From Kitasatospora fiedleri (GTDB lineage: Bacteria > Actinomycetota > Actinomycetes > Streptomycetales > Streptomycetaceae): a stretch of 64,000 nucleotides of DNA. Numbering within the stretch: the first letter of the stretch is position 1; each line of letters starts with the position of its first letter. Made by a program: the position numbers and the translations under genes. The notes beneath the pieces are model-generated. The model made no database searches and was not told where the DNA came from. It saw nothing but the letters and a program-made list of their open reading frames with translations. This document shows positions 43,727 to 53,588 of this stretch, in pieces. The stretch covers positions 5,022,001 through 5,086,000 of the forward strand of contig NZ_OX419519.1 of the NCBI RefSeq assembly GCF_948472415.1. The letters are read 5' to 3'.

Positions 43727-45493
43727 TCAGCCGCTCCCCGGGCCCCGGCCCCCGTCCGGGCCCTGCCAGGTGTGCCAGAGGGCGGCGTAGCGGCCCCGGG
43801 CGGCGAGCAGGTCCTCGTGCGGGCCCAGGTCGGTGAGGCGGCCGTGGGTGAGGACGGCCACCCGGTCGGCGTCGTGCGCGGTGTGCAGCCGGTGGGCGAT
43901 GGCGATGACGGTGCGGCCGGTCAGGGTGGCGGCCAGCGCCCGCTCGGTGTGGCGGGCGGTGGCGGGGTCGAGCAGGGCGGTGGCCTCGTCGAGGACCAGG
44001 GTGTGCGGGTCGGCGAGGATGACCCGGGCCAGCGCGACCTGCTGGGCCCGGGCGCCGTCGAGGCGGGTCGCGGCCGGGCCGAGCTCGGTGTCCAGGCCGG
44101 CCGGGAGGTCGTGCTGCCAGCCGACCGCGTCCAGCGCGGCGGTCAGGGCGGCGTCGTCGGCCCCCGGGGCGGCGATCCGCAGGTTGTCGCGGAGGGTGCC
44201 GAGGAAGACGTGGTGCTCCTGGGTGACCAGGACGACCTGGCGGCGCAGCCGGTCGGGGGAGAGGTCGGCGAGCGGGACGCCGCCGACCGTGACGCTCCCG
44301 GCCCGGGGGCGGTCGACGCCCGCGAGGAGGCGGCCGAGGGTGGACTTGCCGGAGCCGGAGGGGCCGACCACGGCCAGCCGCTCGCCCGGGGTCAGCTCCA
44401 GGTCGAGGCCGTGCAGGACGTCGGGCCCGTCCGGGTAGGCGTGGTGGACGCCGCGGACCTCGATCCGGTCGTCGGCGGGTTCGACGCCCCCGGCGCGGGC
44501 CTGGACGGGGACGGCGGCGGGGGCGGCGGCCAGGCCCTCGACCCGGGCGTACGCGGCGGTGCTGCTCTGCAGGGATTCCAGCAGGATGACGACGTTGTCC
44601 AGCGGGTCGACCAGGCGCTGCAGGTACAGCGCGGTGGAGACGGCCGCGCCGAGGGTGACGGTGTGGTGGGCGACCAGGACGGCGCCGAGCGGGAGGACCA
44701 GGACGGTCGGGACGGTGTAGGAGAGGTTGATGGCGGCGAAGAAGCGCAGCCGCAGGTCCAGGGTGCGCATCCGGGTCCGGTACGCGGTGGCGACGGCCGC
44801 GCGACCGGCGGCCAGGCGCTGCTGCCCCAGGCCGAGGGCGTCGACGGTGCGGGCGCCGTTCGCGGTGGCGGAGAGGGTCTCGGCGAGGCCGGCGTTCGCG
44901 GCCCGGTCGGCGAGGTAGGCGGGGCGGGAGCGGCGCAGGTACCAGCGCGCGCCGAGGGCGATGCCCAGGATGCCGATCAGCCCGCAACCACCCAGCAGCG
45001 GGCTGACGGTGAGGATCGCGCCGAGGATGAACAGGATCTGCGCGCCGGCCACGAACAGCTCGGGCGCGGCGTCCCGGAGCGTCTCGCCGACGGCGGTGGA
45101 GTCGGCGGTGCCGCGGGCGGTGAGGTCGCCGGTGCCGGCCCGTTCGGCGGTGGCGGCGGGCAGCGCGAGGACCCGGTCGAGCAGCCGCTCGCGGACCTCG
45201 GCGGCGGAGCGCTCGCCGAACCGGTGCGCCAGGTAGCGGGCCTGGCGGTTGGTCAGGACCTGGACGAGGGCGCAGCCGAGCAGCAGCAGGCCGAGCCGGT
45301 CGACGTCCGCGGTGGTGGCGCCGGCGGCGACCCGGTCGATGATCCGGCCGAGCAGCCAGGGCCCGGCCAGGCCGAGCAGGGCGGCCGCCGCGTTGAGGGC
45401 CAGCACGACGGCGAAGGCCCGGCCGTCGGCCCGGACCAGGGCGACGGCGGCCCGCCGAACCTGGCGGGGGGTGGCGATCGGCAGGGTGCTCAA
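43727..45493 (-). CDS. ABC exporter half-transporter, consensus ATP-binding motifs but degenerate signature
   Basis: 588 residues: six-helix type IV exporter membrane domain, then an NBD. Walker A GPSGSGKST, Walker B TLVLDEATALLD and the H-loop IAHRLH are intact, but the LSGGQ signature reads LDGARAQQ. It would therefore supply ATP-binding residues for the consensus site, with the partner's LSGGQ completing it. The start is TTG, overlapping the upstream stop as TTGA, with AGGAGG 5 nt before it; the partner gene is immediately upstream. The substrate is unknown. It is co-transcribed and surely heterodimeric with the 605-residue subunit. Confidence 0.9.
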   Translation of the reverse strand: MSTLPIATPRQVRRAAVALVRADGRAFAVVLALNAAAALLGLAGPWLLGRIIDRVAAGATTADVDRLGLLLLGCALVQVLTNRQARYLAHRFGERSAAEVRERLLDRVLALPAATAERAGTGDLTARGTADSTAVGETLRDAAPELFVAGAQILFILGAILTVSPLLGGCGLIGILGIALGARWYLRRSRPAYLADRAANAGLAETLSATANGARTVDALGLGQQRLAAGRAAVATAYRTRMRTLDLRLRFFAAINLSYTVPTVLVLPLGAVLVAHHTVTLGAAVSTALYLQRLVDPLDNVVILLESLQSSTAAYARVEGLAAAPAAVPVQARAGGVEPADDRIEVRGVHHAYPDGPDVLHGLDLELTPGERLAVVGPSGSGKSTLGRLLAGVDRPRAGSVTVGGVPLADLSPDRLRRQVVLVTQEHHVFLGTLRDNLRIAAPGADDAALTAALDAVGWQHDLPAGLDTELGPAATRLDGARAQQVALARVILADPHTLVLDEATALLDPATARHTERALAATLTGRTVIAIAHRLHTAHDADRVAVLTHGRLTDLGPHEDLLAARGRYAALWHTWQGPDGGRGPGSG

Positions 45494-47307
45494 CGGCCCT
45501 CCTGGACAAGGGTGGTGGGGCTTCCGGCGTGGGAGCCGGCTTCGTCGGGCTCGGTGCGGTCGGGCTCGGTGCGGTCGGGCTCGGTGCCGTCGGGCCCGGC
45601 TTCGTCGGGTGCGGTGTCGCGGGTGACCAGGGCGCGGTAGCCGGGTCGGGTGCGCAGCAGCTCGCGGTGGGTGCCGGTGGCGGCGACCTTGCCGTCGACC
45701 AGGTAGTGGACGGTGTCGGCCCGGTCGAGCAGCAGCGGGGAGGTGCTGGTGAGCAGGGTGGTGCGGCCGGTCCGGGCGGCGTACAGGCCGGCGGCCATCG
45801 CGGCCTCGGTGTGGGCGTCGACCGCGGAGGTGGGCTCGACGGCCAGCAGGACCTCCGGGTCGGCGGTCAACGCCCTGGCCAGGCGCAGCCGTTGGCGCTG
45901 ACCGCCGGAGAGGTTGCGGCCGCCGGGGGCGATCGGGGCGGCCAGGCCGCCGGGCAGGGCGTCGTGCACGTCGCGGGCGGCGGCGGCGTCGATCGCGGCC
46001 AGCAGGACCGCGTCGTCGGCCCCGGTACGGCCGCGGACGGTCTCGCGCAGGGTGCCCGCGAACAGCGCGGCCTCGTTCTCGGCGAGGACGATCCCGTCCC
46101 GGACGGCGGACAGCGGCAGGTCGGCGAGCGGGGTGCCGCCCCACTCGGCGCCGGTGGCGGCGTCCAGCCGGGCGAGGCGTTCGGCGACGGCGGCGGTGTC
46201 GGCGGGGCGGGCGGAGGCGAGCACGGTGAGTTCGCCGGGGGCGGCCCGGACGCCGGACGCGGGGTCGGTCAGCGCGGCGGGCCCGGCGGGGGCCGCCGCG
46301 GTGCCGTGGTCGGGCGCGGGGGCGAGCCGGAGGAAGGCGACCACCCGGCGGGCGGAGACCAGGGCGCGGCCGATGTCCTGGCTGCTCTCCAGCAGGAAGT
46401 AGACCGGGGCGACCAGCACGGCCGCGTACCCGAAGACCGCGGCGAGCTGACCGGGCGTCAACCGGCCCTCGACGGCGAGGCGGGCGCCGAGCCAGGTGAC
46501 GGCGGCCAGCAGCAGGACGGGCAGGCCGGAGCCGAGGGCCTGGATCCAGCTGGTGACGGCGCCGACCCGGTAGCCCTCGGCGCGCAGCCGCCCGGAGTCC
46601 GCCCGGTAGCGGGCCGCGAACACCTCCTTGCCGCCGAGGCCGTTCAGCACCCGCAGCCCGCCGGCCAGGTCCTCGAAGCGGGCGGTGAGCCGCCCCTGCC
46701 GGTCGCGGTACTCGCCCTCCACCCGCTGCTGGCGGGCGAGCAGCGGGCGCACGGCCAGACCGAGCAGCGGCAGGCCGAGCAGCACCACCAGGGCCAGCAG
46801 CGGGGAGAGGGCGAGCAGGATCGCGGCGACCGTCAGGTAGCAGACCACCGCGCCGACGCCGGGCCCGACGAAGGTCAGCGCCAGGGACATCCGGACCACG
46901 TCGGAGATCCCGATGGTGACCACCTCGCCCGCGGACACCTGCCGGGGCAGCGCCGCGCCCAGCCGGGTGCTGTGCCGCAGCACCACGCCGACGGTGCGGA
47001 AGGTGGCGTCGGCGCGGACCAGCGTCATGGTGCGGTGCCGGTACCAGGCGAGCGCGGCGCTGAGCAGGCCGGAGCCGAGCATCGCGCCGGCCCAGCCGAG
47101 GACGGTGCCGGTCCGGCCGGTGCGCAGCCCGTCGTCCACGGCCCGGGAGAGCAGGTAGGGCTGGACGGTGAGCCCGAGCATCCAGGCGGTGCCGAAGAAG
47201 GTGCCCGCCAGCGAGCGGCCGAGCTGGCTGACGGCCAGCCAGCACAGGAAGCGCAACGGGCCGCGGGTGTCTGGCTCGCCGGGCTCCCCGGCCGTCGGAT
47301 CGTTCAC
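45490..47307 (-). CDS. ABC exporter half-transporter with degenerate Walker motifs
   Basis: 605 residues: membrane domain (LAVSQLGRSLAGTFFGTAWMLG onward), then an NBD that has lost most ATP-binding residues. There is no Walker A lysine loop (ASARPADTAAV in its place), Walker B reads LLAVEPTSAVD with the Asp replaced, the Q-loop region reads LAENEAALF and the H-loop reads STSPLL. The signature LSGGQRQRLRLARAL is intact. This complements the degenerate signature of the partner. The GTG at 47307 lies 6 nt after a TAGCCT -10 hexamer with no ribosome site. A 21-bp perfect palindrome lies about 110 bp upstream. Confidence 0.9.
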   Translation of the reverse strand: MNDPTAGEPGEPDTRGPLRFLCWLAVSQLGRSLAGTFFGTAWMLGLTVQPYLLSRAVDDGLRTGRTGTVLGWAGAMLGSGLLSAALAWYRHRTMTLVRADATFRTVGVVLRHSTRLGAALPRQVSAGEVVTIGISDVVRMSLALTFVGPGVGAVVCYLTVAAILLALSPLLALVVLLGLPLLGLAVRPLLARQQRVEGEYRDRQGRLTARFEDLAGGLRVLNGLGGKEVFAARYRADSGRLRAEGYRVGAVTSWIQALGSGLPVLLLAAVTWLGARLAVEGRLTPGQLAAVFGYAAVLVAPVYFLLESSQDIGRALVSARRVVAFLRLAPAPDHGTAAAPAGPAALTDPASGVRAAPGELTVLASARPADTAAVAERLARLDAATGAEWGGTPLADLPLSAVRDGIVLAENEAALFAGTLRETVRGRTGADDAVLLAAIDAAAARDVHDALPGGLAAPIAPGGRNLSGGQRQRLRLARALTADPEVLLAVEPTSAVDAHTEAAMAAGLYAARTGRTTLLTSTSPLLLDRADTVHYLVDGKVAATGTHRELLRTRPGYRALVTRDTAPDEAGPDGTEPDRTEPDRTEPDEAGSHAGSPTTLVQEGR

Positions 47308-47475: not shown

Positions 47476-49425
47476 TTACGCGGCGAAGACCTGGAGTTCG
47501 GCGACCTGGCCGGCCGGCCAGCCGGTGTTGGCGGTGAACACCAGGCGTACCTGACGGGCGCTCACCCCGGAGGGGAGGGTGAGGGTCGCGCTGTTGCCGC
47601 TCGCCGGGTCGAACACGTACCCGGCGGGCGCCAGCAGGCGGGAGAAGGTCACTCCGTCGGTGCTGCCCTGCACCTCCACGGTCTGGGTGCGGGTGGCCCA
47701 GGCGGCGGCCGGGGGCACCGAGAGCACGATCCGGCGGACCGGGAGGGTCGAGCCCAGGTCGGTCTGCAGCCACTGCGGGAAGGAGTTGTTGGGGCTCTCC
47801 CAGTAGCTGTTCGGGTCGCCGTCCACCGCGTTGCCCGAGCCGTAGTTCTGGGTGTGGCCGCTCTCCGCGGTCGGCCGGTGCAGCGCCAGGTTGCCGGTGG
47901 GGACGGTGGCGGGGGAGGTGGTCGCCGAGACCTGGCCGGAGGCGGGGGAGGTGTTGCCCGCCGCGTCCAGCGCCAGCACGTCGAAGGTGTACGCGGTGGC
48001 GGCGGACAGGCCGGTGACGGTGAACGAGGTCGCGGTGGTGGTGGCCCGGACCGCGCCGCCGACCCGGACCCGGTAGCCGGTGACGCCCACGTTGTCGGTC
48101 GAGGCGCTCCAGGCCAGCGAGACCGTGGTGTCGCTCTGCCCGGTCACCCGCAGCCCGCCCGGCGCGGTCGGCGCCGAGGTGTCCGGCTGGGACGGGAACG
48201 GCTGGGTCGGCCGGGCCGCCGTCACGGCCAGCTGCCCCTTGAGCATTCGGCCGCCGTCGCCGGTCAGCCGCAGGTAGTAGTCCGAGGAGCAGGCCGTACC
48301 GTCCTCGTCCAGTGCCAGGAACCCGGCCCCGGCCGGTACCCACGCCTGCGACTCGGCGGTCTTGGCGATCTGGTTGCCCTCGTTGTACTCGTCGAACATC
48401 GAGATGTACGCGGACGCCACCCCCGCCCGGGCCATGTTGTAGAACTGCCGCCACATGAAGTCGCCGTGCGCCCGCTGCCGGTCGCCCACCCCGCCCGGCA
48501 GCACGCACGGCTGGTAGTCGATGCCGTGCGCGTTGCACTCCGCGAGGTCCGGGACGGTCGCCACGTTGTAGAAGTTGTCGGCGTCCGCGGCGCTGCCGAT
48601 CCGGCCGACCAGCCACGGCGAGAGCATGTCGAAGGAGTGGTAGACCTCCGAGAAGCCCGCCCGGGAGTCCCGGTCGCCGGTGCGCCACCAGGTCGGCACC
48701 CCGCCGATCACGTAACAGCCCTGCGCCTTGAACCAGTTGAGCACGTCCAGGCACTGCGCCGGGGTGAACGGGCGCTGGTTGTCGTTGAACCCGAAGCCCC
48801 AGATGCACACCACCGGCTTCCCGTTCTGCCGGGCGTACGCGGACGAGGCGGTGTGGGCGCGCATCTTGTTCGTCCAGTCGGCCTTGATGTCCGACTGCAT
48901 GGTCGTCCAGTCCGAGACGTCGTACATGACGTAGAACTTCACGCCCTGCGACTCCGCGGCGCTGCGCACCTTCCCCGCCATCGCGTCCCGGGTCGGGCCC
49001 TCGCCGCCGGTCGGGTTGAAGCGCTGCAGGGCGGCGGTGTCGATGCCGTACTGCTTCATCCAGCGGAAGTGCACGTCGACCGTGGACTGGTCGTAGGAGG
49101 AGAACAGCGAGGCCGGCTGGCCGTTGTTCAGGTTCGGGAAGGCCGTGGCGTACGTCTTCGGGTACTCGCGGACGTCCGGCCAGGCGACGATCGAGCTGTT
49201 CGAGGAAGAGGGGGAGGTGCCCCAGTTCCGGGCCCAGTGCCACCAGCCGTTGATCGGAGCGCCGTCGCCCGGGCAGGCGAACCAGCCCTGGTAGCCGACC
49301 GTCACCTTCCCGACCACGTCACCCGCCGGGCTGGCCGCCTGCGCGGCGCCCTCGCCCAGGCCCACCGCCCCGAGCACGCCCGCCGCCGCCGCAGCCTGCA
49401 GGAACGTCCGCCGCGATACCACCAT
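47476..49425 (-). CDS. Tat-exported GH99/GH71-like glycosidase with FN3 and F5/8-type CBM
   Basis: 649 residues. The twin-arginine signal SRRTFLQ plus hydrophobic Ala-rich segment gives Tat export. A catalytic-like domain (about 35-400) starts VGKVTVGYQGWFACPGDGAPINGWWHW and has GVKFYVMYDVSDW and AYISMFDEYNEGNQI, resembling the GH99/GH71-like group. An FN3 domain follows (APTAPGGLRVTGQSDTTVSLAWSAS) and then a discoidin/F5-8C-type carbohydrate-binding domain (NLALHRPTAESGHTQNYGSG to the end). Candidate acids are in FDEYNEG. The substrate is probably a mannan or xylan-like glycan, uncertain. The ATG has a GGAGG site. Confidence 0.85.
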   Translation of the reverse strand: MVVSRRTFLQAAAAAGVLGAVGLGEGAAQAASPAGDVVGKVTVGYQGWFACPGDGAPINGWWHWARNWGTSPSSSNSSIVAWPDVREYPKTYATAFPNLNNGQPASLFSSYDQSTVDVHFRWMKQYGIDTAALQRFNPTGGEGPTRDAMAGKVRSAAESQGVKFYVMYDVSDWTTMQSDIKADWTNKMRAHTASSAYARQNGKPVVCIWGFGFNDNQRPFTPAQCLDVLNWFKAQGCYVIGGVPTWWRTGDRDSRAGFSEVYHSFDMLSPWLVGRIGSAADADNFYNVATVPDLAECNAHGIDYQPCVLPGGVGDRQRAHGDFMWRQFYNMARAGVASAYISMFDEYNEGNQIAKTAESQAWVPAGAGFLALDEDGTACSSDYYLRLTGDGGRMLKGQLAVTAARPTQPFPSQPDTSAPTAPGGLRVTGQSDTTVSLAWSASTDNVGVTGYRVRVGGAVRATTTATSFTVTGLSAATAYTFDVLALDAAGNTSPASGQVSATTSPATVPTGNLALHRPTAESGHTQNYGSGNAVDGDPNSYWESPNNSFPQWLQTDLGSTLPVRRIVLSVPPAAAWATRTQTVEVQGSTDGVTFSRLLAPAGYVFDPASGNSATLTLPSGVSARQVRLVFTANTGWPAGQVAELQVFAA

Positions 49426-49822: not shown

Positions 49823-51655
49823 TCAGACCAGGCTGTCCTTCCAGGTCTGGTGGAGGGTGGCGAAGCGGCCCTCGCCGGCGATCAGGGCGGCGGGGGTGCC
49901 GTCCTCGACGACGCGGCCCTGGTCCATCACCAGGACGCGGTCGGCGATCTCGACGGTGGAGAGGCGGTGGGCGATGATCACGGCGGTGCGGCCGGCCAGG
50001 ACGGTGCGCATGGCGTGCTGGACGGCCTGTTCGCCGGGGACGTCCAGCGAGGAGGTCGCCTCGTCGAGGATGAGGACGGCGGGGTCGGCGAGCAGGGCGC
50101 GGGCGAAGGCCACGAGTTGGCGCTGGCCGGCCGAGATCCGGCCGCCGCGCTTGCGGACGTCGGTGTCGTAGCCGTCGGGCAGGGCGGCGATGAACGGGTG
50201 GGCGCCGATCGCGCGGGCCGCGGCCTCGACCTCGGCGCGGGTCGCGTCGGGCTTGCCGACGGCGATGTTCTCGGCGACCGTCCCGGAGAACAGGAAGGAC
50301 TCCTGGGTGACCATCACGACGTTGGCGCGCAGCTCGGCGGTGGAGAGCTCGCGCAGGTCGACGCCGTCGAGGGTGATCCGGCCGGCGGTGGGGTCGTAGA
50401 ACCGGGCCAGCAGCTTGGCCAGGGTGGACTTGCCCGCGCCGGTGGCGCCGACCACGGCGGTGGTCCGCCCGGCGGGCAGCACCAGGTCGAACGGGGCGAG
50501 CACCTGCTTGCCGTTGGCGTAGGCGAAGGAGGTGGCCCGGAAGGCGACCTCGCGGCCCTTGCCGCGCGTGGCGGGCAGGGCGGCGGGCGCGGCGGGCTCG
50601 GGGACGGACGGCTCGTGGGCGAGCAGGCCGGCCATCTTCTCCAGCGCGGCGGCCGCGGACTGGTAGCTGTTGAGGAACATCGCCAGCTGGTCGATCGGGT
50701 CGTAGAGCCGCCGCAGGTAGAGCACGAAGGCGGTCAGGACGCCGAGTTCGAGGCTGCCGTCGGTGACCAGGAAGGCCCCGAGGACGACCACGCCGGTGAT
50801 CCAGACGTTGGCCGTCAGCCGGGACAGGAAGACGTACCGGGCCATCTCCAGCAGGCCGTCCGCGGTGGCGGTGGCGGACTGCCGGTTGACGGTGCCGAAC
50901 GCCTTGTCGTTGGCGGCCTCGCGGCGGAACGCCTGCACCGGGCGGATGCCGTTCATGGTCTCGGTGAAGCGGACGATCAGCCCGGCGGAGACGGTGCGGG
51001 AGCGCCGGTAGACCTGCTGGGAGCGGCGCCGGAAGGACCGGATGACCAGGTACATCGGCAGGAAGGAGGCCAGCGCGGCCAGGCCGAGGCGCCAGTCGAC
51101 GACCACCAGGACGACCGTGATGTAGCCGACCGACAGGCAGACCATCAGCAGTTCCTGCAGGCCCTCGGAGAGCAGCTCGCGCAGGGTGTCCACGTCGCTG
51201 GTGGCGCGGGAGATGATCCGGCCGGAGGTGTAGCGCTCGTGGAAGTCGAGGCTGAGCCGCTGGGCGTGCCGGAAGATCCGGCCGCGCAGGTCCAGCAGGA
51301 TGTCCTGGTTGATCCGGGCGGCGACCCGGATGAACGCCCGCTGGAGCAGGGTGGCGGCCAGCGCGCAGCCCAGGTAGGAGAGGGTGACGGCGATCAGCGG
51401 GCCGGCGTCGTGGCCGCGCAGGGCGGGGATGCCGCGGTCGATGGCGTAGGCGACCAGCAGCGGACCGGACTGCAGCGCGGCCTGCTGGAGCAGCACGGCC
51501 AGCACGGCGACGGTGATCCGGCGGCGGTGCGGGGACAGCAGCGAGCCGAGCAGGGCGCGCGGGGCGCCGGGCGGGACGGGGATGTCCTGGTCGTCGGTGG
51601 CCGGGGGGAGGAGCTCGTCCTCCTCGGCGACGGGTGCGGCGACGGCGGTGGTCAT
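49823..51655 (-). CDS. ABC exporter half-transporter (catalytic Glu present)
   Basis: 610 residues: Pro/Asp/Glu N-terminal tail, six-helix exporter domain ([22 protein letters not shown] onward), then an NBD with Walker [10 protein letters not shown], signature ISAGQRQL (a change from LSGGQ), Walker [14 protein letters not shown] with the catalytic Glu, and H-loop IAHRLST. It pairs with the upstream 614-residue subunit, whose stop overlaps this ATG as ATGA. By analogy with TM287/288 and LmrCD, one ATP site is hydrolytic. The substrate is likely a drug or lipid, not determinable here. Confidence 0.9.
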
Positions 51656-53496
51656 CGGGCCAGCGCCCCTTCCAGCTCGGACTCGCCGGACATCAGGGCC
51701 CGGTAGGCGGGACAGGAGCGCAGCAGCTCCTGGTGGGTGCCGACGGCGGCGATCCGGCCGTCGGCGAGCAGCGCGACCCGGTCGGCGAGCAGCACCGTGG
51801 ACGGGCGGTGCGCGACGACCAGGGCGGTGGTGCCGGCCAGCACCCGGCGCAGGGCGCGCTCGACCAGCGCCTCGGTGTGCACGTCGAGCGCGGAGAGCGG
51901 GTCGTCCAGGACCAGGAAGCGCGGTGCGCCGACCACGGCCCGGGCCAGCGCCAGGCGCTGGCGCTGGCCGCCGGACAGGCTCAGGCCCTGCTCGCCGACC
52001 TCGGTGTCCAGGCCGTCCGGGAGCCGGTCGACGAACCCGGCCTGCGCGGTGGCCAGGGCGGCGGCGACCTGCTCGGGGGTGGCGTCGGGGGCGCCCATCA
52101 GGACGTTCTCCCGGACGGTGGCGGAGAACAGGGTGGGTTCCTCGAAGGCGACGGCGAGGTCGCGGCGCAGCTCGGCGCGCGGCACGTCCCGGAGGTCGGT
52201 GCCGTCCAGGGTGATCGAGCCGGCGGTGGGCTCGTACAGCCGGGGGAGCAGCGCGGTGAGGGTGGTCTTGCCGCTGCCGGTGGCGCCGACCAGGGCGAGC
52301 GTCTCGCCGGGGCGGACGTGCAGGTCGACGCCGGCCAGCAGGTCGGGGGTGCCGGCGGGCGCGTCGGGGTAGCGGAAGCGGACGCCGGTGAAGCGGATGC
52401 CGCGGTCGTCGGACGGCGCCAGGCCGGACGGCGGGTCGGCCGGCTCCGGTTCGTCCATCACCTCGAAGTAGCGGTTGGCGGCGCTGGCGGCCTCGGCGGC
52501 GAAGCCGAGCAGCCAGCCGAGCGACTCGACCGGCCAGCGCAGGGCCAGCGCGGTGGACAGGAAGGCGACCAGGGTGCCGACCGAGAGCCGGTCGTGCGCG
52601 ACCAGGACGGCGCCGGCGGCCAGGGCGCCGCCGAGGGCGAGTTCGGGCAGGCCGACGATGACCGCCCACAGGTTGCCGAGCAGGCCGGCCTTGCGCAGCT
52701 CGGTCTCGCGCAGGGCGGCGCTGTGCCGGCGGAACTCCTCGGCCATGGTGCGGTGCCGGCCGAAGGCCTTGAGGACGCGGATGCCGAGCACCGACTCCTC
52801 GACCACGGTGGCCAGGTCCCCGTTCTGGTCCTGGGCGAGCCGGGAGGCGGCCGAGTACCCGGCCTCGAAGCGCCGGGTGAAGTACAGCAGCGGGATCGCC
52901 GGGAGCACGGTGATCAGGGCGAGCCGCCAGTCGAGGACGAACATCAGGGCGGTGCCGGTCAGGAAGACCGTGGAGTTGACGACCAGGAAGACCAGCGGGA
53001 AGGCCAGGAACAGCCGCAGCACGAACAGGTCCGAGGTGGCCCGGGAGAGCAACTGCCCCGAGGGCCAGCGGTCGTGGAAGGAGATCGGCAGCCGCTGGAG
53101 CTTGGCGAACAGCTCGCCGCGCAGCCTGGTCTCGACCCTGGCCAGCGGGCGGGCCACGATCACCCGGCGGACGCCGAACAGCACGGCCTCGGCCACGCCG
53201 AGCAGCAGCAGCAGGCCGGCCAGCGGCCACAGGGCGGACAGCTCCCGGTGGGCGACCGGGCCGTCGACGATCCGGCGCAGCACGACCGGGACGGCCAGCA
53301 CGCTGAGCGAGGCGAGCCCGGCGGCGGCCATCGAGCCGAAGATCCGCCAGCGGGCCTCGCGCGCGTAGGGCCACAGGCGCAGCAGCGAGCGCACCGCGGA
53401 CCGGGGTGCCGGTACGGGTGAACCGTGGGCGCCGCCTGTTGACGGTGCGTTCGAATCCGCGGGGGTGGGCGGAGCGGGGTTCTGGTTCTCGGCCAT
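51652..53496 (-). CDS. ABC exporter half-transporter (Walker B Asp in place of Glu)
   Basis: 614 residues from the ATG at 53496 (MAENQNPAPPTP). An N-terminal disordered tail, a six-helix exporter domain (VRSLLRLWPYAREARWRIFG onward) and an NBD are present. Walker A is GATGSGKTT and the signature LSGGQRQRLALARAV is perfect, but Walker B ends RFLVLDDPLSALD, so the catalytic Glu is Asp. It therefore contributes the signature to the active site and the non-hydrolysing ATP site to the heterodimer. The start is chosen because TACCCT lies exactly 7 nt upstream; an in-frame ATG 30 nt earlier would lie upstream of that promoter element. Confidence 0.88.
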   Translation of the reverse strand: MAENQNPAPPTPADSNAPSTGGAHGSPVPAPRSAVRSLLRLWPYAREARWRIFGSMAAAGLASLSVLAVPVVLRRIVDGPVAHRELSALWPLAGLLLLLGVAEAVLFGVRRVIVARPLARVETRLRGELFAKLQRLPISFHDRWPSGQLLSRATSDLFVLRLFLAFPLVFLVVNSTVFLTGTALMFVLDWRLALITVLPAIPLLYFTRRFEAGYSAASRLAQDQNGDLATVVEESVLGIRVLKAFGRHRTMAEEFRRHSAALRETELRKAGLLGNLWAVIVGLPELALGGALAAGAVLVAHDRLSVGTLVAFLSTALALRWPVESLGWLLGFAAEAASAANRYFEVMDEPEPADPPSGLAPSDDRGIRFTGVRFRYPDAPAGTPDLLAGVDLHVRPGETLALVGATGSGKTTLTALLPRLYEPTAGSITLDGTDLRDVPRAELRRDLAVAFEEPTLFSATVRENVLMGAPDATPEQVAAALATAQAGFVDRLPDGLDTEVGEQGLSLSGGQRQRLALARAVVGAPRFLVLDDPLSALDVHTEALVERALRRVLAGTTALVVAHRPSTVLLADRVALLADGRIAAVGTHQELLRSCPAYRALMSGESELEGALAR

Positions 53497-53503
53497 CGCC
53501 GAG

Positions 53504-53509
53504 AGGGTA
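53504..53509 (-). promoter_or_regulatory. -10 element of second ABC operon
   Basis: TACCCT on the minus strand, 7 nt from the ATG at 53496. It decides the start codon. Confidence 0.45.
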
Positions 53510-53588
53510 GGCCGTTCCGCCGACATTTCTCATCCGGTTTTTTGCCCCTGTCGGTGAGAACCGGCCAGGCCGCAGGGGCCCCGCGCGG

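Follow-up and report, generated by a model that had tools for sequence, protein, structure and literature searches.

What a degenerate ATP site is for in an ABC transporter is a debated question, and it is the question raised by two adjacent genes, here called A and B, in the window that we analysed, a 64,000-nucleotide stretch of Kitasatospora fiedleri DNA. In the leading view, ATP stays at the degenerate site as a glue or hinge, and continued use has kept the site from diverging more (PMC7756269; PMC12038006). An earlier note on this DNA had placed the pair at 43727-47307, coordinates that proved right when both frames were re-checked. Pfam assigns to each half a PF00664 transmembrane domain (TMD) joined to an ABC nucleotide-binding domain (NBD), the NBD of A being matched above the cut-off over part of the ABC_tran model only (positions 46-137). 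The genes and motif positions are as follows:

45490-47307, minus strand: gene A, ABC half-transporter of 605 aa with a GTG start; TMD plus an NBD without ATP-holding elements
46192-46215, minus strand: Walker A position of A, SARPADTA, no P-loop (alignment and model)
46060-46089, minus strand: Q-loop position of A, VLAENEAALF, no Gln (alignment)
45898-45912, minus strand: signature of A, LSGGQ, intact (alignment)
45817-45849, minus strand: Walker B position of A, LLAVEPTSAVD, without the Asp, Glu and D-loop retained
45730-45750, minus strand: H-loop position of A, TSTSPLL, His lost, Ser-Pro conserved in 105/106
45490-45493, minus strand: TTGA overlap of the A stop and the B start
43727-45493, minus strand: gene B, ABC half-transporter of 588 aa with a TTG start and a catalytic NBD
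44426-44443, minus strand: A-loop of B, HAYPDG, intact (alignment)
44342-44365, minus strand: Walker A of B, GPSGSGKS (extended, GPSGSGKST), intact (alignment)
44204-44227, minus strand: Q-loop of B, VTQEHHVF, intact (alignment)
44039-44062, minus strand: degenerate signature of B, LDGARAQQ (alignment)
43967-43999, minus strand: Walker B and catalytic Glu of B, LVLDEATALLD, intact; D-loop altered from the SALD type to ALLD
43880-43897, minus strand: H-loop of B, AHRLHT, intact (alignment)

Where GxxGxGK(S/T) is expected at the Walker A position, A has SARPADTA instead, and its Walker B reads VLLAVEPTSAVD, with Val in place of Asp and the Glu retained. The motif read-out confirmed the earlier description of A as a partner without a Walker A, with a lost Walker B Asp, altered Q and H loops and a perfect LSGGQ, and added that the A-loop strand is lost as well. 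The description of the 588-residue subunit, B, as having a good Walker A, Walker B and H-loop alongside the signature LDGARAQQ also stood, and its A-loop and Q-loop are intact too. TM6 and the Walker A position are a median of 55 residues apart in A, about 11-18 fewer than in B (66) and in the neighbouring ABC pair (72-73). An AlphaFold model of A (23-sequence alignment, pLDDT 84) has the ABC exporter fold with a strand at 360-365 and a helix from 368, so that two residues stand where the P-loop belongs, while in the model of B (pLDDT 81) a gap at 377-382 separates the strand, which runs to 376, from the helix, which begins at 383. The best Foldseek matches of A were TmrAB, TM287/288, TAP and MsRv1273c/72c, with YbtPQ among the matches. 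The C-terminal tail of A (45493-45620) is acidic and repetitive, EPDRTEPDRTEPDEAG, is modelled with low confidence and lies outside the matches to many orthologues.

Complementary motif loss across the Actinomycetes

We tabulated the A-loop, Walker A, Q-loop, signature, Walker B, D-loop and H-loop in a sample of Actinomycetes sequences (106 A, 101 B) that has A and B side by side at 92 loci. The orthologues of one genome, G059, were excluded, since apparent frameshifts split A, B and the neighbouring ABC gene at its locus L067 (G059:C1:5257000-5276500), probably through assembly errors.

In A, the A-loop aromatic residue, the Walker A Lys, the Q-loop Gln and the H-loop His are each present in 0/106 sequences, whereas Ser-Gly-Gly of the signature (as SGG(Q/E)) and the Ala and Asp of the D-loop are present in 106/106. 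The Walker B Asp is kept in 27/106 and the catalytic Glu in 86/106, so the dead site partly persists in some lineages, and loss of the Walker B Asp, unlike the other losses, is lineage-specific. In B, the A-loop Tyr, Walker A and Q-loop Gln are found in all 101 sequences, and the Walker B Asp with its Glu (93/93) and the His (92/92) at every locus reaching far enough. The B signature retains its Ser in 13/101, its first Gly in 24/101 and its second Gly in 3/101, and the D-loop Ala is lost in nearly all B sequences; the B proteins of a side branch of the family (L234-L246, L296-L298) have lost the D-loop Asp as well, SLLD having become AEAG. Every element of the site between the B Walker motifs and the A signature is thus kept, and most elements of its mirror image are lost. 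Conservation excludes chance as the source of this pattern, with the Walker A Lys in 0/106 A against 101/101 B, and SGG in 106/106 A against the second Gly in 3/101 B. The family alignment that the earlier note had proposed as a check finds the pattern fixed in every A and B examined, save for the Walker B Asp; orthologues with intact motifs, the outcome named beforehand as speaking against the idea, were absent among the 106 A and 101 B.

The dead side has fixed residues of its own. Ser-Pro occupies the His-Arg position in 105/106 A, and the former P-loop carries a Pro in 91/106 and an Asp or Glu in 70/106; in B, the signature helix carries Gln-Gln (99/101 and 94/101) and a His follows the Q-loop in 100/101 (EHHVF). 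Column entropy is 1.52 bits for the A NBD, 1.90 bits for the A TMD and 1.17 bits for the B NBD, meaning that the NBD of A is more conserved than its own TMD. Together, these features indicate that the dead side is structurally constrained and not drifting freely.

The family is class-wide and extends well beyond one strain. In searches at the level of genus, family, class and phylum, a clear score gap separates the A family from other ABC exporters. A main branch (E < 1e-160) is present in about 100/247 sampled genomes of the class, from ~19 families, and the side branch is the best match in some 20 further genomes (E ~1e-93 to 1e-116, with samples checked for membership); other classes of the same phylum hold a few A-family members. 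Herbidospora, Terrabacter, Glycomyces and Streptomyces are among the named carriers, and the window's own genome has a second A/B copy (at 1.69 Mb, L056).

Pairing, descent and comparison with known transporters

At all 92 loci with a full A, B lies 3' of A on the same strand, and the two genes overlap or are <60 nt apart at 67 of them. In pairs other than that of the window, the spacing runs from -7 to 301 nt, with one listed value of -1058 that is probably an artefact of automatic start choice. Translational coupling of A and B through the TTGA overlap is likely in the window. Pairwise distances among A and among B are closely correlated (Mantel r 0.972; 0/999 permutations as high). In a FastTree phylogeny (258 sequences, 559 columns, midpoint root; motif columns included, though few), A is monophyletic (support 1.0), as is B (0.996), and their subclades mirror each other. 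In one genome (G039, L292/L294) the pair is split, B and A flanking NRPS genes on one strand.

A groups in this tree with Rv1273c-like halves and B with Rv1272c-like halves, but assigning the pair to the Rv1273c/72c group was rejected, since A and B form clades of their own. Changes in the degenerate site of Rv1273c/72c-like halves are confined to single residues (Q-loop Glu, Asp-Asp, ISAGQ), and placement beside these halves suggests a single loss of Walker A, at the base of A, with later and repeated losses of the Walker B Asp. The graded series from Rv1273c/72c-like halves through A with the Walker B Asp to A without it may represent an evolutionary path.

MsRv1273c/72c is, like A/B, an actinobacterial heterodimer of ABCB fold in which one half donates LSGGQ and the other has a weakened signature and the catalytic site. 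Its degenerate site binds ATP in the structure and has been called essential (PMC12038006). That site keeps its Walker A and A-loop, as is general for TM287/288, TmrAB and MsRv1273c/72c, whereas both are at 0/106 in A; the weakened partner signature of this class is shared by B (Ser 13/101, second Gly 3/101). TM287/288, TmrAB, BmrCD and TAP resemble A/B in being heterodimeric exporters with one degenerate site, but their degenerate sites differ at a few residues, whereas A has lost the A-loop, Walker A, Gln and His, which bears out the proposal that the degeneration goes beyond the usual single-residue asymmetry. Human ABC proteins show changes in the signature and in the Glu; the one change to Walker A is a Lys-to-Arg replacement in ABCG5/G8 (PMC7756269). 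What appears to be new, judging by sequence, is a weak site without Walker A, given that known degenerate sites keep Walker A and bind ATP; no transporter with so full an erasure, exporters without Walker A included, was found described in the open-licence literature, which is no proof of absence. The lanthipeptide exporters RamAB/AmfAB were considered as relatives and dropped, with no supporting evidence and an empty literature search.

A putative single-site cycle and its alternatives

The two adjacent genes encode different half-transporters whose motifs combine into one composite consensus ATP site, so the earlier claim that they jointly make exactly one complete site holds at the level of sequence. 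From the motif pattern, its fixation, the adjacency of the genes and their co-divergence, we consider it highly probable that A and B form an obligate heterodimeric ABC transporter of ABCB-type exporter fold, with one ATP site and the other side held by protein contacts. From A would come the LSGGQ and D-loop, and from B the A-loop, both Walker motifs, the Q-loop, the catalytic Glu and the His; the mirror site, where A is without P-loop, A-loop, Gln and His and B without LSGGQ, should bind no ATP. Loss of the whole P-loop and A-loop in A strongly implies that the A-side site is dead even for ATP binding. A likely cycle would use one ATP per stroke, in which ATP at the single site would close the NBDs and drive the outward movement, and hydrolysis by the catalytic Glu of B would reopen the live side. 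The dead side would serve as a permanent protein hinge, formed by Ser-Pro in A and Gln-Gln in the signature helix of B. That a large natural family cycles in this way, on a single nucleotide site with no ATP at the second and a protein-contact hinge between the NBDs, is a broader reading that we regard as reasonably probable.

A different account would make A a gene in decay in this strain or lineage, for which the lineage-specific loss of the Walker B Asp and a dN/dS of ~0.43-0.73 in the A NBD against 0.17-0.49 in the B NBD could be cited, although a strong G+C constraint on third positions limits the use of dN/dS here. However, the same loss is found in all 106 A across many genera and families with frames open and the SGG and D-loop invariant, the A NBD is more conserved than the A TMD, and A always occurs with B; decay confined to the strain is refuted by relatives without Walker A throughout the class, and decay in any form is so improbable as to be nearly negligible. 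B does hold all the catalytic elements and might act as a homodimer, or with another half-transporter such as one from the canonical-looking ABC pair next door (49823-53526), leaving A as a regulator. A homodimer of the 588-residue subunit, named beforehand as evidence against the pairing, would set B's own signature, altered in essentially all 101 sequences, opposite both sites, and the unbroken LSGGQ of A is useful only facing the Walker A of B. With A and B also strictly adjacent and co-diverging (92/92), a heterodimer of A and B is much the more likely unit, and we consider this arrangement of B without A very improbable. The conserved replacements in A (Pro 91/106, Asp/Glu 70/106, Ser-Pro 105/106) could instead mean that the A-side site binds ATP or another ligand non-canonically, but with the P-loop down to about two residues in the model, the A-loop strand absent and no Lys, Gln or His, this seems quite unlikely, if less so than the preceding alternatives.

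With the ATP-holding elements all gone and the pair kept across the class, the A/B heterodimer would stand as a natural counterexample, in its sequence, to the leading view. If the single-site cycle is true, ATP at the degenerate site would be dispensable in principle. Whether pumps of this kind require a second ATP site could be tested on this natural pair, and its family is ready material for testing one-ATP transport.

Genomic settings and candidate substrates

In the window, the pair is flanked by an alpha-glucan phosphorylase gene (in a GlgE-type cluster) and a gene for an fn3/F5-8C protein; it adjoins glycogen/maltosyl genes, with no evident substrate link, and the glucan-phosphorylase setting recurs at ~15 related loci. 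Other branches lie near genes that by sequence alone resemble guaA/guaB or betaine uptake genes, or near NRPS genes, the last at about 13 loci by raw count. In two loci (L065, L066), the A/B pair sits inside a natural-product cluster with an O-methyltransferase, an NRPS and a PreAtp-grasp plus PGM1_C protein.

The split pair belongs to a side-branch locus with the order formyltransferase, ornithine monooxygenase, FecCD, ATPase, binding protein, B, NRPS, A, esterase, which we take to be the order of the coelichelin cluster. Its A (L292:14006-15706) and B (L294:7826-9730) occupy the cchI and cchG positions, separated by NRPS genes, and group with the side branch of the A and B clades described above, showing the same complementary loss. 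IrtAB and YbtPQ share the fold and import siderophores, so the direction of transport is not fixed by the fold. A/B could likewise be an importer with an exporter fold, given YbtPQ among the Foldseek matches and a side branch in siderophore clusters, but a FecCD/ATPase/binding-protein importer is already encoded in that coelichelin-type cluster, and the CchGI of S. coelicolor (SCO0491, SCO0493) is a presumed coelichelin exporter (PMC12161575); import is thus unlikely, though the least improbable of the alternatives weighed. By analogy with CchGI and its cluster order, the side branch probably exports small peptides or siderophores, and such substrates are a reasonable guess for some of the A/B family. 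The likeness of the side branch to CchG/CchI is one of cluster position and gene order; the window pair belongs to the other, main branch and lies outside any NRPS siderophore cluster, in a different genomic setting.

The product of 47476-49425, encoded upstream of A in several relatives too, combines a long N-terminal part without an assigned domain with fn3 and F5/8 type C domains, and by eye it seems to begin with a signal peptide. The neighbouring ABC pair (51652-53526 / 49823-51655) shows mild single-residue degeneration, with the Q-loop FEEP and DDP in one half and ISAGQ in the other. By motifs and tree it looks like the Rv1273c/72c type, and a PDB search with its second protein returned MsRv1272c as the best bacterial half-transporter. 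At two loci (L088 and L248), A/B and this neighbouring pair stand as four genes in tandem.
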